Below are positions 25,239 through 35,530 of a stretch of 48,637 bases of DNA, in pieces. Location: contig SUPR01000014.1 of the NCBI GenBank assembly GCA_005191425.1, positions 1 through 48,637 on the forward strand, read 5' to 3'. The DNA comes from Candidatus Helarchaeota ASGARD archaeon Hel_GB_B. GTDB lineage: Archaea > Asgardarchaeota > Lokiarchaeia > Helarchaeales > HEL-GB-B. Position numbers and translations under genes: made by a program. The notes beneath the pieces were generated by a model. That model was not told the DNA's origin. It ran no database searches and was given only the letters and a program-made list of their open reading frames with translations. The number at the start of each line of letters is the position of its first letter. The first letter of the stretch is position 1.

Positions 25239-27036
25239 ATGGAAAACGAAAATCTGAATAAAGACCAAAAGGTCAAACAAAAATCAAAAAGGACTGATGT
25301 TTTTAAAAAATCTGGCAGTTCAAGAGTAATCGCTTCTGCAAGTTGGACTATATTAATAGCTGTTATCGGTGCAATCATGTTATTTATTTATCAAGTAATT
25401 GCCGGAAATTATTATGGAGAAAGTGGTGGGCTTTCATATTTTAGTGTGACAGCTGCGATCCTTGCCATTTCAACTGCTATAAGTGTTGGGACTGGACAAG
25501 CTTTTATTAAAATTGGAAAAGAGCGATACACAATTGATGGAATAGAAAAAGGTAATATTAAAATAATTCAAATGTCTAAAATCAATATGTTATTTGGGTT
25601 GATTATTACTGGAGTCGTCCTAATAATTTCGGTATTTAATTTTACTGATCCAGTATTTTTCATAATATTAATTGGAGCTTCAAGTGGCATCTTAATCACT
25701 TATATTAAAGATATTTTAGGAAATATGCTGGGAACTCTTAATCGGTTTGATATGTTAGCCATAGTTGGAGGTATTTATGGAGTTATTGTCTGTATTTTTG
25801 GTTTCTTGATTATTTCTTTGAATTTACCGCCTCAATTTCTAGCTTTTATTCCTACTATTATGATAATTATAATGTTAGCCCTGTCAATTTTTTTCTACAA
25901 TAAAATTAAGACTGTTAGTTTTAAGGATTTATTTTTTAGCTTGAAAAAATTTCCGATTGAAAAACGGTTTGCAAAACATTATATTATTTATGGAATTGAA
26001 TGCACAATCAGTAATTTGGTAGTATTTGGTATTTTTTCTCATATTGTGTTAATAATGACTTTTATATGCTATAATTATTGGGGTACTTTTTTAGGGATCA
26101 CAACTAGTGTCCTAAATATGACTCAAATTCTTACATTAATTGATTCTTTTGTTTTTATCGAAGTTGCTTTGATTTTTTTTTTCAGGTCCATTAAATGTTG
26201 AAGTCAGTGAAGCTTACGCAAAAAAAGATTATATAACAATGGAAAAATCAATAAATGCAGTTGGAAGGATTGGTATAATTATTGCACTTCCTATATCTTT
26301 AGCCATGACTTTTATGGCACCTCAATTAATCAAAATGTTTGCTTTAGGGTCGGTATCAAAAGGTTCTCCTCCAATATTAGACCCTTCCTTATTCTTTCAA
26401 GCATGGCTTACACTCTCTATAACTTCATTTGGTCAAGCTTTCTATGGATTAGCATGTATATTTGGAGCTGCTCTAATTGGGGCAGGAAAAGCTAAAAAGG
26501 CAGCAATGGGCTTCGGTATATCCGCAGTCCTTCTTTTTTTAAGTACTCCTGCATTAATTTTTCTGGTCGGTATTATTGATGATTATTTCCCTATTTTTGG
26601 CGTTTCTACATATTCATTAATTGGAACTGGATTTGCATTTTTATTAAGTGGAATATTTGTATTACCTTATTTAGCTCGGGCTACGAAAACTGTTCTTAAA
26701 ATTAAATATGATCTACGAGTTAAAAGATTAATCCCATGTTTAATTATCCTTGCAATATATCTTATTTTAATACCAATTGATTCTGGAGCTTCATTTTTAC
26801 TAAATTATTTTCCCACTCTTGGATTTGATCTTTTAAAGTTAATTCTCTTAACAATATTTCTTCTTATAGGGACTCTTATTAGTGGCGTTTCACTATGCTT
26901 TTTTGGAGTGATCGGAAAAGGTGATGGTAATATTTTAAGAGATACATTTGCTTCATTTAAAATGGGGATATTAGCTAAAATCATAATTAAAATCGGAAAA
27001 TTTATCTACTACTTAAATCCAATGAACCCTAAATGA
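25239..27036 (+). pseudogene. Polysaccharide/lipid flippase (MATE/Wzx-like) interrupted by a frameshift at a T10 run
   Basis: Two adjacent frames (25239-26201 and the continuation through 27036) together encode one multi-pass transporter of about 598 residues and about 14 helices. It resembles the polysaccharide-flippase branch of the MOP superfamily. The break is at ten consecutive T at 26173-26182. With nine T the reading continues I-F-F-S-G-P-L-N-V-E-V-S-E-A-Y-A directly into the second part, whose first 20 or so codons have no start. Causes could be an assembly homopolymer error, a real mutation, or transcriptional slippage. Both halves look well conserved, so I favour error or slippage over old decay. 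It would move lipid-linked sugars or polyprenyl carriers across the membrane. Confidence 0.7.
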
Positions 27037-27073
27037 ATTAAACAATGAGATAATTATAAATAAGATGTATTTG

Positions 27074-27097
27074 ACCTTTTAGTATACTTAAAAAGGT
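27074..27097. terminator. Hairpin with T-rich tail, possible terminator
   Basis: ACCTTTT (27074-27080) and AAAAGGT (27091-27097) form a 7-base stem around a loop containing the 8-base palindrome AGTATACT. A T-rich stretch (TTACTTCTTTTT) follows. It lies 38 bases after the flippase stop. Could instead be an operator. Confidence 0.35.
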
Positions 27098-27288
27098 GTA
27101 TTTACTTCTTTTTAATTTAAAAAATTCAATCATTTCTATTCATAAGTGCTTTTAATTTCTTGTTCAATCATATTCATAATATGCAATTAAATATGATTAA
27201 TAAAGCTATACTAATAATTTAAAAAGAAATAGTAATAAAAAATTGGGTATATTATTAATTTAATTAAATGGTATTTGTGTGAATTTAA

Positions 27289-28122
27289 ATGTGTGATTAT
27301 TGTCTAAAATATGGCGATGGACATAAATGGTATTTAAATCCCAAAAACTTTTCGGAGGAAACATTACATTCTGCTCGAGTTCAACAAGCCAGGATCATAG
27401 AATTTTTGGGTGGTAATTATAAAATGGAATTTGAAATTGGTGCAGCAACAATTATTGATTCGCTTATTCCAGATTTACATGACCACCACAATCTTGAGAT
27501 TGTAAGTACAAAAGTAGAAACAATGCATGGTGGACAGGTTGTACCACTTGAAGATGCACTTAAAATTATCGATTTATGTAATGGTAAAACAATTATTGTC
27601 CCATGTTATTGCAGACGCCATTTTGGTGGACTAGAAGATGTTATGACCTGTATGTTTTTACACCCAATTCCTGAAATGGTCCCAAAAAACCGTCCCTATG
27701 AAAAATATATAATTTTAGATAAAGAAGAAGCTAAAAAGAAATTACGCGAATTTGATAAGATTGGTTATGTTCATACAGTTTTCTGGGCACCAGTCCCGGT
27801 TCCAATAGTGATTTGTAATTGTGAATATCCATATTGTATCGGTTTAAAGTCTAGATTGAATTATAATGTAGTAAACGCCACTCGTAAATCTGAATATATT
27901 TGTGTTGCTGATGATTCTAAGTGTGATGCATGTGGTGGAGAGCCAAAATGTATCAGTAGGTGTCAATTTGGTGCAATTAAGAAAAAAATATCTGAAAATA
28001 ACAAAGTAGTGGTCAATCCCTCTCAATGTTTTGGATGCGGCGTATGCAGAGTTGCTTGCAGACAAGGTGCCCTTAAATTAATAGATCGCTCCGAATTTCC
28101 CGCATTTAAAGATGATTATTAA
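27289..28122 (+). CDS. Multi-cluster Fe-S (ferredoxin-like) protein
   Basis: 277 residues rich in cysteine: C-D-Y-C at the start, C-Y-C-R-R near 105, C-N-C-E-Y-P-Y-C near 180, then a ferredoxin-like C-terminal domain (C-D-A-C-G-G-x3-C-x3-C and C-F-G-C-G-V-C-x3-C). At least two [4Fe-4S] clusters are expected. Such proteins accompany oxidoreductases in anaerobes. A second small ferredoxin frame begins immediately after its stop, with GGAGG overlapping the junction, so the two are one transcript. The electron donor and acceptor are unknown. Confidence 0.8.
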   Translation: MCDYCLKYGDGHKWYLNPKNFSEETLHSARVQQARIIEFLGGNYKMEFEIGAATIIDSLIPDLHDHHNLEIVSTKVETMHGGQVVPLEDALKIIDLCNGKTIIVPCYCRRHFGGLEDVMTCMFLHPIPEMVPKNRPYEKYIILDKEEAKKKLREFDKIGYVHTVFWAPVPVPIVICNCEYPYCIGLKSRLNYNVVNATRKSEYICVADDSKCDACGGEPKCISRCQFGAIKKKISENNKVVVNPSQCFGCGVCRVACRQGALKLIDRSEFPAFKDDY

Positions 28123-30668: not shown

Positions 30669-31862
30669 TTAGATAATTGCAAATTTCCTTAGTATTTCTT
30701 TAAATTCTTCGTCAGTTAATGCTGATTTTCTTATTCCGCTTCCAAATAAATGTTTTTGCAAATAATTTGTAAGGTTCTTTATACGACTATCTTTTTCATT
30801 AATTTCAGGCATAAATTCTTTAATTTTATAAATAATTACTTTTTTACCTGAATATGGGCCAACAAGTAATCTCCGGACATTTCCAACGCTTTCAGGGGGA
30901 AATGGTTCATATGTCTCTGGGTGCTGTATTATACCTGCCGTATGAATTCCTGATTGATGAGTAAAAGCATTCATCCCTACTATTGCCTTATTAGATGGAA
31001 TTCTTACTTCAGTGGCTTTGGATATTTTTTTACAGACTTCCGTTAAATATTTAACATTATATTTATCTACTCCATGGTGGAATTTTAAGTTCATTATTAC
31101 TTTTTCTGTTTCTGCATTTCCTGAACGCTCTCCCATTCCTAACATAGTAGTTGATGCCCACTTACAACCATGAGATAAAGCAATTAAAGTATTTGAAACT
31201 GCATTTCCCAAGTCATCATGTCCATGATATTCAAAATTGATTTTAAAATGAGTACATAAATATTCGATTTTATCTGGAATACTTTTATTAATTGAAATTG
31301 TCTCACTAGTATGATGTGGACTACCTACCCCTACTGTATCACATATCCTATATGTATCTATCTTTAAATCTTCCAATAATTGAATAATCTTTAGCTCAAA
31401 ATCCCAATCTGCTCTTGTACAGTCTTCTCCATGATAAAAAACTCTAAGGCCATGGTCTATTGCATATTGAACTATCTCTTCTATCCTTTTATATGCAGTT
31501 TCACGGTCTATATTTAATTTATATTTAAGATGAATATCTGAAATGGGGTGTGAAATACCTACTTCTTTTATATTAGGAAGATGCAATGCGTCGTCTATAT
31601 CACTTTTGTTAGCTCGAACCCAAATAGCAACTCTTGTTTTATCCGGAATTTCTGACTCCAATATTAACCTTGCAGATTGTCGATCAATGTCATACCAGGT
31701 ACCAAACATTTCAATACGTTCTATATTAATTTTTGATAATAATCTTGCAATTTCTAGCCTCTCTTCAGGGTTAGGTGCCCTAATGCCTGGCATCTGTACT
31801 CCATCGCGCAGCGTAGTATCGTCTATACACCTTGTCATCATCTCTTTTTGAGATAAAGTCAC
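30669..31862 (-). CDS. Homocitrate/isopropylmalate synthase-family enzyme
   Basis: DRE-TIM acyltransferase that condenses an acyl-CoA with a 2-oxoacid. Seen: D-T-T-L-R-D-G-V-Q at the N-terminus (metal Asp and catalytic Arg), H-G-H-D-D-L-G-N (metal His pair), G-M-G-E-R-S-G-N, and H-Q-S-G-I-H. Length 397 lacks the C-terminal leucine-regulatory domain of LeuA (about 500 aa), so homocitrate synthase, Re-citrate synthase or citramalate-type activity is more likely than leucine-regulated isopropylmalate synthase. Start GTG is five bases after GGTG. Lrp-type RAM-domain genes lie upstream on the same strand beyond gene debris. Confidence 0.85.
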   Translation of the reverse strand: MTLSQKEMMTRCIDDTTLRDGVQMPGIRAPNPEERLEIARLLSKINIERIEMFGTWYDIDRQSARLILESEIPDKTRVAIWVRANKSDIDDALHLPNIKEVGISHPISDIHLKYKLNIDRETAYKRIEEIVQYAIDHGLRVFYHGEDCTRADWDFELKIIQLLEDLKIDTYRICDTVGVGSPHHTSETISINKSIPDKIEYLCTHFKINFEYHGHDDLGNAVSNTLIALSHGCKWASTTMLGMGERSGNAETEKVIMNLKFHHGVDKYNVKYLTEVCKKISKATEVRIPSNKAIVGMNAFTHQSGIHTAGIIQHPETYEPFPPESVGNVRRLLVGPYSGKKVIIYKIKEFMPEINEKDSRIKNLTNYLQKHLFGSGIRKSALTDEEFKEILRKFAII

Positions 31863-32469: not shown

Positions 32470-32694
32470 CTATTTATAATCCTTAAGGACTATAAACGTG
32501 TTGGTATTTGTAATACCCTCAATCATATCAATTTTATTTATCATAATTTCATTAAGTTCTTCCATTTCATTTACATGAATTTCTACCATAATATCAAATA
32601 TTCCTGTTAGGCTGGAAATTTGCTTTATTTGTTTGATTGACTTTAGTTGATCAATAATTTGTTTCCATTTACCTGATTCAGCTTTTATTACCAT
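32470..32694 (-). CDS. Stand-alone Lrp/AsnC RAM domain protein
   Basis: 74-residue protein consisting only of the alpha/beta RAM (AsnC_trans_reg) ligand-binding domain, with no helix-turn-helix. The alternating pattern V-I-K-A, a helix, the central T-G-I-F-D-I-M-V-E-I-H-V strand (glycine-Asp turn) and a final V-L-K-D-Y strand fit the family. Stand-alone RAM proteins bind amino acids and modulate Lrp-type regulators. It starts 21 bases after the stop of a transporter that carries its own C-terminal RAM domain, so they are one operon. AAGGG lies upstream of the ATG. Confidence 0.85.
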   Translation of the reverse strand: MVIKAESGKWKQIIDQLKSIKQIKQISSLTGIFDIMVEIHVNEMEELNEIMINKIDMIEGITNTNTFIVLKDYK

Positions 32695-32715
32695 TAAACC
32701 CTTTATAATAATGTA

Positions 32716-34158
32716 TCACTTCCTTTTTAATTCAAATTCTATATGGTGATTTACTTCAATAACACATTCTAATTGTTTTAATTTATCTATAAAGTTTTTC
32801 AATGTATAAAATGTTGGAAAATAGGTTTTAATAACAATATCATATTCACCTGCAATTACCATGATTTCACAGATATGTGGGTTATATTTTAATCTAGATA
32901 AAAATCTTTCTAACTTTTTAGGTTTAATTTTCATAAATATAATTGATTTAATACAATGTTTTTCATGATAATATCTCAATAGCATCACGATAATCATTAA
33001 AATCATTGCAATTGTTAGTAAAAATAAGTCATAATTAATTTCGTCCCCTATAAATAGTCCAATAAAAATGGAAGCCATGGGCTCAAATACACTCAGAATT
33101 GAGATCCATTGATCCCATCTAAGGGACCTAGAAGGCCAATTATTTTGACTTTGAAAATAAACTAGATATGGAATAATAGTACAATTAACTCCAATAGCCC
33201 AAGTCCAATAATTCTGAAAAATATATGGAATATACTGGAGTTCTTCAATAAATTTATTAATATCATTTGTCAAATAAATATTTTTAATTGGAAACAATGG
33301 ATAAATGACAACGAATAAAATTAGTATGATTAAACTGAATAAAAAGAAAAATGAAACTTTAATTAATGATTTTACAAGCTGAAAATTTGTGCTTTTATCT
33401 TTAAAACTTAGAATTCGCTCTTTTTCATATTCCGTAAAATCATCTATTCCTGAAAAAATAATAAACAAAAACCAAAATATGATTGTTAAAATCAATGAAA
33501 TGACCCCGAAAATCGTGGACTCTGCAGAAAATATTAATGGTGCGCTTATTATTGTAAGAATTCCTGCAATAAATAAAGTAATTAAATAAGATATTTTAAT
33601 TGAATTTAGATTTTCATATTTTCTTAGCATATTATATATCGCAATAATAATTGTAACCCCTACGGTGTTGATTATAGCAGAAAATATTACTCCAAGAAAA
33701 TTATAACTTAAAAAATAAAATAATATACTGAAGAAATAACTAAATCCTAGAAGAAAATAATAAATTATATAATAGAAATGCATTTTTTTACTTTTATAAT
33801 TTAAATTTGTTGAATGATTTGGGAGGGCACTTTTAATATTTCTTTTAAAATCATTATAATTGAATTGGAACCACTCAAATAGACTATTTCTCTTCTGAAC
33901 TTTATTAAATAAAATAAAAGAAAATATGAGAATAAACCCAAAAATTGAGGCTATTAATACTCGAATAAATGTGATCATTAAAACTGATTCTAAATTTAGT
34001 TCAAGATAATAATAAGGCCATGGGACTATTCCCCATAATATCGTTGTCATTAAAATGGCTATATGATTTACCCTTTTTAATAGCGAAATAATTGAAATTA
34101 TAAATATTATGATAAAAAATACATTAAATAAGAGGACTGAAATTGTTTCTTCAAGCAT
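32716..34158 (-). CDS. DMT/EamA-type transporter fused to a C-terminal RAM domain
   Basis: 480 residues. The first ~395 hold about ten hydrophobic segments. L-W-G-I-V-P-W-P-Y near residue 41 and E-P-M-A-S-I-F-I-G near residue 363 match the two EamA repeats of drug/metabolite transporters, many of which export amino acids. Two hydrophilic loops (about 95-125 and 240-260) interrupt the repeats. The last ~80 residues (I-K-P-K-K-L-E-R-F-L, then I-A-G-E-Y-D-I-V-I-K) match the Lrp/AsnC RAM fold and resemble the free RAM protein next door. I infer a transporter sensed or gated by amino acids on its cytoplasmic side. Confidence 0.82.
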   Translation of the reverse strand: MLEETISVLLFNVFFIIIFIISIISLLKRVNHIAILMTTILWGIVPWPYYYLELNLESVLMITFIRVLIASIFGFILIFSFILFNKVQKRNSLFEWFQFNYNDFKRNIKSALPNHSTNLNYKSKKMHFYYIIYYFLLGFSYFFSILFYFLSYNFLGVIFSAIINTVGVTIIIAIYNMLRKYENLNSIKISYLITLFIAGILTIISAPLIFSAESTIFGVISLILTIIFWFLFIIFSGIDDFTEYEKERILSFKDKSTNFQLVKSLIKVSFFFLFSLIILILFVVIYPLFPIKNIYLTNDINKFIEELQYIPYIFQNYWTWAIGVNCTIIPYLVYFQSQNNWPSRSLRWDQWISILSVFEPMASIFIGLFIGDEINYDLFLLTIAMILMIIVMLLRYYHEKHCIKSIIFMKIKPKKLERFLSRLKYNPHICEIMVIAGEYDIVIKTYFPTFYTLKNFIDKLKQLECVIEVNHHIEFELKRK

Positions 34159-34666: not shown

Positions 34667-35530
34667 ATGAAGATGAATATTGACTGTGTCATCTGTTTTC
34701 AGAGGCAAGCATTAAGAGCACTTGGTGAGACCGCCGATACAAAACTCAAAGAGCGTGTATTAAGAAGTGTTATGTCGTTACTTTTAAATGAAGACTGGAC
34801 GAAAACGCCCCCCAAACTTGCTGCTAAAGTCTATAAATTAGTAAATTCAATATCTGGACTTAAAGACCCCTATAAAGAATTAAAAAGAACTTCCAATGAG
34901 TTAGTACTTCAGATGTATAATAGATTAAAAAAAGAATGCTTGGAATCATCTGATCCAATATTATATGCATTAAAATTGGCAGTTGCAGGAAATATTATGG
35001 ATATTGGAGCTGCTGATTCATTTGATATAGAGAAAACTATTGAAAAAGTTATGACTGCAGAATTTGCATTTGATTCATCACAAAAATTGAAAAATAATCT
35101 TAAAATGGCTAAATCCATTCTATATTTTGCGGACAACAGTGGTGAAGTAGTATTTGATAAATTGTTAATTGAATTGATATTAAGCAAATTTCCAAACATA
35201 AAAAAAATCACATTTGTGGTAAAAGCTGGACCAATCATTAACGATGCTACAATGGAAGATATCGACCAGATAAGTTTGAGATCATTTTCTCAAGTGGTTT
35301 TTAAGACTATTGGCAATGAACTTTATCCTAGCTCACCATCTAGAGATTCTGAAGAAGTAAAGCAGTGGATTTATGGACATGATATTATAATTAGCAAAGG
35401 GCAGGGAAATTACGAGGAACTCAATATCTATAAGGACTTAAATAAAGTTTATTACCTTTTGATGGCAAAATGCCCAGTAATTGCACGCGATCTAGGAATT
35501 AAAACCCAAAGTTTCGTAATATATTCGTAA
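34667..35530 (+). CDS. DUF89 family protein (damage-control phosphatase type)
   Basis: 287-residue DUF89 protein. The archaeal/bacterial subgroup signature C-x2-C occurs at the N-terminus (C7, C10). The metal/phosphate site is D156-N-S-G-E160 with D164. The K186-A-G-P-I-I-N-D-A-T motif follows, and S-K-G-Q-G-N-Y-E lies near residue 245. DUF89 enzymes hydrolyse phosphate from damaged or excess sugar and nucleotide metabolites in a metal-dependent way. No strong ribosome-binding site; the ATG two codons downstream is an alternative. Monocistronic. Confidence 0.88.
   Translation: MKMNIDCVICFQRQALRALGETADTKLKERVLRSVMSLLLNEDWTKTPPKLAAKVYKLVNSISGLKDPYKELKRTSNELVLQMYNRLKKECLESSDPILYALKLAVAGNIMDIGAADSFDIEKTIEKVMTAEFAFDSSQKLKNNLKMAKSILYFADNSGEVVFDKLLIELILSKFPNIKKITFVVKAGPIINDATMEDIDQISLRSFSQVVFKTIGNELYPSSPSRDSEEVKQWIYGHDIIISKGQGNYEELNIYKDLNKVYYLLMAKCPVIARDLGIKTQSFVIYS

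Follow-up and report, generated by a model that had tools for sequence, protein, structure and literature searches.

A DMT-type transporter of Asgard archaea carries a C-terminal RAM domain and is encoded beside a free RAM protein that may gate it

In the Helarchaeota genome Hel_GB_B, two neighboring genes on the reverse strand encode a 480-residue transporter of the DMT/EamA type with a C-terminal RAM domain (32716..34158) and a 74-residue stand-alone RAM protein (32470..32694), separated by 21 bases. All coordinates refer to the window, that is, the whole 48,637-nucleotide stretch that was analyzed, and both reading frames and the gap lie exactly where an earlier sequence-only reading had put them. 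In the transcription of archaea and bacteria, RAM domains are the classic means of sensing amino acids; what stand-alone RAM proteins do has been described as unclear. Here, one RAM domain is fused to a membrane protein, the other one is free, and only the free one retains the effector-site motif. Our analysis of these features makes it somewhat probable that the free RAM senses an amino acid, joins the fused, ligand-blind RAM and thereby gates transport, probably efflux. No transporter of such design was found among open-access papers, in agreement with the initial impression that none had been described.

The membrane part of the transporter (residues 28-400; 32959..34077, reverse strand) belongs to the EamA/DMT superfamily by profile, with EamA (PF00892) matches in 23 of 30 family members (best 6.8e-10), and by its ten-helix fold; transport activity is predicted. 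The window protein itself gave no Pfam EamA match up to E=1, and an hhalign comparison with two EamA proteins of the host genome returned a probability of 66% and an E-value of 5.5e-5 over 299 columns. An AF2 model built from a 30-row alignment (mean pLDDT 83, pTM 0.81) showed a DMT-type helical bundle, whose helix 378-400 passes directly into a beta-alpha-beta-beta-alpha-beta fold at residues 403-473 (strands 403-411, 429-434, 441-447 and 466-473; helices 413-423 and 450-462). Using Foldseek, the membrane part matched the DMT transporters Vrg4 (5oge; TM-score on target 0.65) and 5i20 (0.64), which we take to be YddG, while the tail matched DM1 (2e1a; TM-score on target 0.91, 1.1 Å); the E-values of these searches were weak (about 1e-3), with both halves being consistent with the sequence evidence. 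Indeed, the profile PF01037 matched residues 409-473 with 34 bits (cut-off 25) and was found in 27 of the 30 family members. Profile and model thus both returned the RAM fold that had been proposed for the tail, and not another fold, for the domain at residues 403-473 (32740..32952, reverse strand). The ten helices ascribed to the transporter hold for the DMT core; what the count had left out is an extra N-terminal helix (residues 2-24; 34087..34155, reverse strand), which is visible in the alignment and the AF2 model of the window protein, is shared with its closest relative (G003) and is absent from most family members.

Two features bear on how the two halves are connected. First, the even-numbered loops of the core (2/3, 4/5 and 8/9) carry a net positive charge, and by this positive-inside pattern the C-terminus, and hence the RAM tail, is predicted to be cytosolic. 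Second, the last membrane helix is joined to the RAM domain by the motif R-[YF]-x-H-E (residues 395-399; 32962..32976, reverse strand), which is strongly conserved in the 30-row alignment (R in 29/30, Y or F in 30/30, H in 26/30 and E in 30/30).

The free RAM gene starts 21 bases 3' of the transporter gene on the same strand, and its product matched PF01037 over residues 3-71 of 74 with 55.6 bits, which bears out its first description as a stand-alone RAM protein. Its AF2 model (pLDDT 95) matches the folds of STS042 (2zbc) and DM1 (2e1a), the latter with 1.0 Å over 69 positions. The conserved effector-site motif, identified by alignment with DM1, STS042, PH1519 and PH0140, is present as Thr64-Asn-Thr66 (32497..32505, reverse strand). 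No profile match to an HTH or other DNA-binding domain was obtained in either the transporter or the free RAM protein, as had been expected of a system acting without DNA binding. The free copy is therefore a DM1-type stand-alone RAM, with a single RAM domain, no HTH and the effector motif kept. Its frame is open for seven codons 5' of the ATG (YIIIKGL; window 32694-32715), where GGAAGTGA spans the transporter stop. Since the alignment suggests that the first strand begins in this stretch, translation may actually initiate as many as seven codons before the ATG, at a non-ATG codon (ATT/ATA), as in locus L134 (475-735).

To assess how widespread this arrangement is, we searched 97 related genomes at the protein level and found homologues in 49 of them. 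When 228 genomes of the phylum were searched with a profile, full-length copies were recovered within the same class, along with a single copy from another class (G086) and fragments in a further family (G173). The complete fusion genes number 46 and are spread over 44 genomes of Asgard archaea, all of them Lokiarchaeia, as judged from named copies, except for a single genome that belongs to another class, and all 46 carry the RAM tail; the fusion is thus conserved in relatives. The free RAM gene accompanies it almost always, as had been surmised: in 42 of the 46 cases it lies on the same strand within 116 bases (median gap 21). For 41 of these paired loci the free RAM gene was called (40 downstream, one upstream), and the 42nd, without a standard start codon, was recognized by eye. 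An apparent loss of the free RAM at L134 was rejected, as the frame is present at 475-735 and lacks only an ATG, GTG or TTG. The four unpaired fusions all belong to one family (f6). Three of them are followed by a same-strand RAM gene at a distance of 2.1-4.7 kb, and for the fourth the contig stops about 2 kb downstream. At the f6 loci L136, L137 and L141, where the nearest free RAM gene lies 2-5 kb downstream, a gene resembling those of sugar hydrolases (GH4-like by eye) and one for a membrane protein of no known family often precede it. Another family (f5; loci L135, L140, L145 and L152) has two diverged, paralogous free RAM genes in tandem after the transporter, an arrangement that suggests hetero-oligomers of three RAM types.

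Most family members share only 22-27% identity with the window transporter (50% for the nearest), which indicates that the linkage between transporter and RAM is old. Moreover, the pair is retained amid gene neighborhoods that otherwise differ. Chance adjacency was rejected given the 46 conserved genes, the 7-13 RAM matches per genome and the background stand-alone RAM genes, none of which (0/7) adjoins a transporter. Complete homologues of the membrane part without a RAM domain were not found in the 228 genomes of the phylum, the short ones being located at contig ends or at an N gap. A seemingly split form in G074 (locus L154), with a membrane ORF and a separate RAM ORF, was likewise rejected, as the break is a run of 16 N. 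There was no match to the fusion in plasmids, and a pattern scan of 84,980 species, which reaches close relatives only, so that distant fusions could escape it, returned Lokiarchaeia only. Across the family, mean identity is highest for the free RAM (0.51), followed by the membrane part (0.43) and the fused RAM (0.37). The distances of the membrane part and the free RAM correlate with r=0.93, a value that still contains the shared species history and is therefore no proof of contact.

The two RAM domains differ in the residues that the canonical effector site requires. In RAM proteins, the effector pocket is built by strands and loops that two separate dimers contribute (PMC2995911), and the conserved Thr-x-Thr, also discussed in PMC8707732, corresponds to Thr132 and Thr134 of ST1022, for which mutants are named in PDB titles. 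We scored this motif on the alignment to DM1, STS042, PH1519 and PH0140. While 45 of 53 free RAMs carry [ST]x[ST], the other 8 lacking the first Thr/Ser, and all 53 have S/T at the second position, the motif occurs in none of the 48 fused RAMs. The difference persisted in non-redundant sets (Thr-x-Thr in 0/30 fused vs 22/28 free RAMs; Fisher 7e-11). In a second alignment, 3 of 25 fused RAMs had S/T at the second position only, which is probably an alignment effect. As for the background, the second T/S is kept in 17 of 19 regulators and in 8 of 8 stand-alone RAMs, one of these eight being a partner free RAM. With Thr-x-Thr lost from the fused and kept in the free RAM, the canonical site is apparently out of reach for the fused copy on its own, but could be used by the free copy. 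This suggests that the two RAMs split their roles, the fused one serving for docking and the free one for sensing.

The genomic context is suggestive of amino acids, which differ between lineages. In the main Lokiarchaeia family, the neighbors comprise a divergent ornithine aminotransferase, carbamate kinase, ornithine carbamoyltransferase, lysine 5,6-aminomutase alpha and beta, the reactivase KamB and gamma-glutamyltransferase; much of this lysine/ornithine synteny comes from related genomes and reflects shared descent. In G074, a run of trpA, trpE and trpG continues on the same strand with a free RAM and a family transporter (L154, 5400-10001), the third copy in this genome, whose 3' part is lost in the 16-N gap. 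Another G074 copy has aspartokinase and an Asp/Glu racemase in its vicinity, and a racemase is also found 3' of one G023 copy. The only amino-acid-type neighbor in the window itself is a gene for a 397-residue protein resembling 2-isopropylmalate, homocitrate or citramalate synthases (30669-31862, reverse strand), about 600 bases downstream of the free RAM; this protein scored below every NCBIfam cut-off shown. Because neighbors differ between clades and the lysine/ornithine context stems from related genomes, both substrate and ligand are uncertain. A shared operon context as the cause of the pairing was rejected family-wide, given that the neighbors differ by clade. The surroundings also hold genes of other kinds, namely an ARMT1-like damage-control phosphatase divergent from the transporter (window 34667-35530, forward strand; PF01937, 4.9e-60), three consecutive ORFs of 320, 265 and 277 residues with no Pfam match at 1e-5 (window 25239-28122, forward strand) and, near the pair in nine loci (L113 10182-11774 and relatives), a gene for a 530-residue protein with no NCBIfam match at 1e-10.

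In the mechanism that we favor, the transporter and the free RAM would be made from one transcript. As RAM domains assemble via dimers and dimer-dimer contacts, the free RAM would join the RAM tails of the transporter, giving a hetero-oligomer beneath the membrane. The free RAM would then bind a cytosolic amino acid, which probably differs by lineage and is perhaps a basic one in the main Lokiarchaeia group. Ligand binding would alter the RAM assembly, and the R-[YF]-x-H-E junction would relay this change to the last helix, which would switch transport on or off, most likely the efflux of surplus amino acid. The direction of transport is a guess, since DMT proteins include importers and exchangers, and the gene adjacency could reflect co-expression alone. 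Given the precedents of MthK, AmtB-GlnK, SbtA-SbtB and DM1-FL11, we nevertheless consider the odds to be slightly in favor of a free-RAM-gated transporter over the readings discussed below. For the more specific picture in which fused ligand-blind and free ligand-sensing RAMs form a hetero-oligomeric ring that gates a DMT transporter, a device that would have evolved in Asgard archaea, the chances appear to be just short of even.

The fused RAM might instead be a mere oligomerization module, with the free RAM acting as a DM1-like demodulator of Lrp transcription factors that is co-transcribed by virtue of a shared amino-acid response. Such a role is in line with the hetero-octamers that DM1 forms in vitro with the full-length regulator FL11 (PMC2995911), the occurrence of Lrp-type regulators in genomes with the fusion and the unusable canonical effector site of the fused RAM. 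However, in a RAM tree of 80 columns, which is poorly resolved, fused, partner-free, regulator and other stand-alone RAMs group by kind (7 label changes vs 43 in shuffles), and the partner free RAMs cluster apart from both Lrp regulators and other stand-alone RAMs. Together with the persistence of the pair in otherwise changing neighborhoods, which suggests a transporter-specific function, this makes the demodulator role rather unlikely, about one chance in several. Somewhat less probable still is a scenario in which the tail holds or releases the free RAM depending on transport activity, with the released protein tuning Lrp regulators or enzymes, so that the signal would originate at the membrane and reach the cytosol, much as in the sequestration of GlnK by AmtB. 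The small soluble partner encoded next to the transporter would fit this idea, and so would the resemblance of the ferredoxin-like RAM fold to PII proteins, given that SbtB, which is PII-like, attaches to SbtA on its cytosolic side (PMC8352866); yet the covalent RAM tail suggests control of the transporter itself, and the downstream target is conjectural. Lastly, that the fused RAM itself binds a different, non-canonical effector, leaving the free RAM as an auxiliary or redundant sensor, is improbable: near the pocket, the Gly and Asp of the GxYD loop are still present in 48/48 and 45/48 fused copies, respectively, and the free RAM retains them too, but Thr-x-Thr is gone from every fused copy, and no other part of the system is conserved as poorly as the fused RAM.

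If the free-RAM-gated transporter is correct, RAM domains would have a second, faster use in the direct control of transport, and amino acids would control transport through a domain so far known from transcription. Stand-alone RAM proteins would gain a testable job, and the amino-acid homeostasis of Asgard archaea could be approached from a new side.

Several known systems come close to the pair. Lrp/AsnC transcription factors combine an N-terminal HTH with a RAM domain, whereas the window pair has RAM but no HTH. In Pseudomonas aeruginosa, the Lrp/AsnC protein PA2577 and the EamA transporter PA2576 are paired by neighborhood as well, but there the control is transcriptional, through a DNA-binding domain, and the genes are divergent (PMC8707732). 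The transporter shares the ten-helix fold and the EamA profile matches with the EamA/DME branch of the DMT superfamily (YddG, Vrg4 fold), and differs from the ordinary EamA proteins of the host genome, which, among those inspected, end without a RAM tail. The free RAM closely resembles Pyrococcus DM1 in its fold, with Thr-x-Thr kept, and RAM hetero-octamers are known in vitro from DM1 and FL11 (PMC2995911); FL11, however, is a DNA-binding regulator, while the partner RAM of the window pair is part of a membrane transporter. The post-translational control of a transporter by a small soluble ferredoxin-like sensor, as proposed here, is established for AmtB-GlnK and SbtA-SbtB (PMC8352866), where the sensors are PII proteins instead of RAM and neither AmtB nor SbtA carries a fused sensor copy. 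The closest likeness is to the K+ channel MthK, a membrane protein with a C-terminal ligand-sensing domain that assembles with free copies into an eight-domain ring (PMC9440719, PMC2573919), namely a gating ring of four fused and four free RCK domains (PMC9440719). In MthK, the RCK sensor belongs to a channel and the free copy arises from an internal translation start, whereas here the domain is RAM and not RCK by Pfam and Foldseek, it is carried by a DMT carrier, the ring is a proposal and the free copy has a gene of its own, which has diverged and encodes a different binding site. Should this ring exist, unrelated parts would have given rise to a counterpart of the fused-plus-free RCK gating ring.
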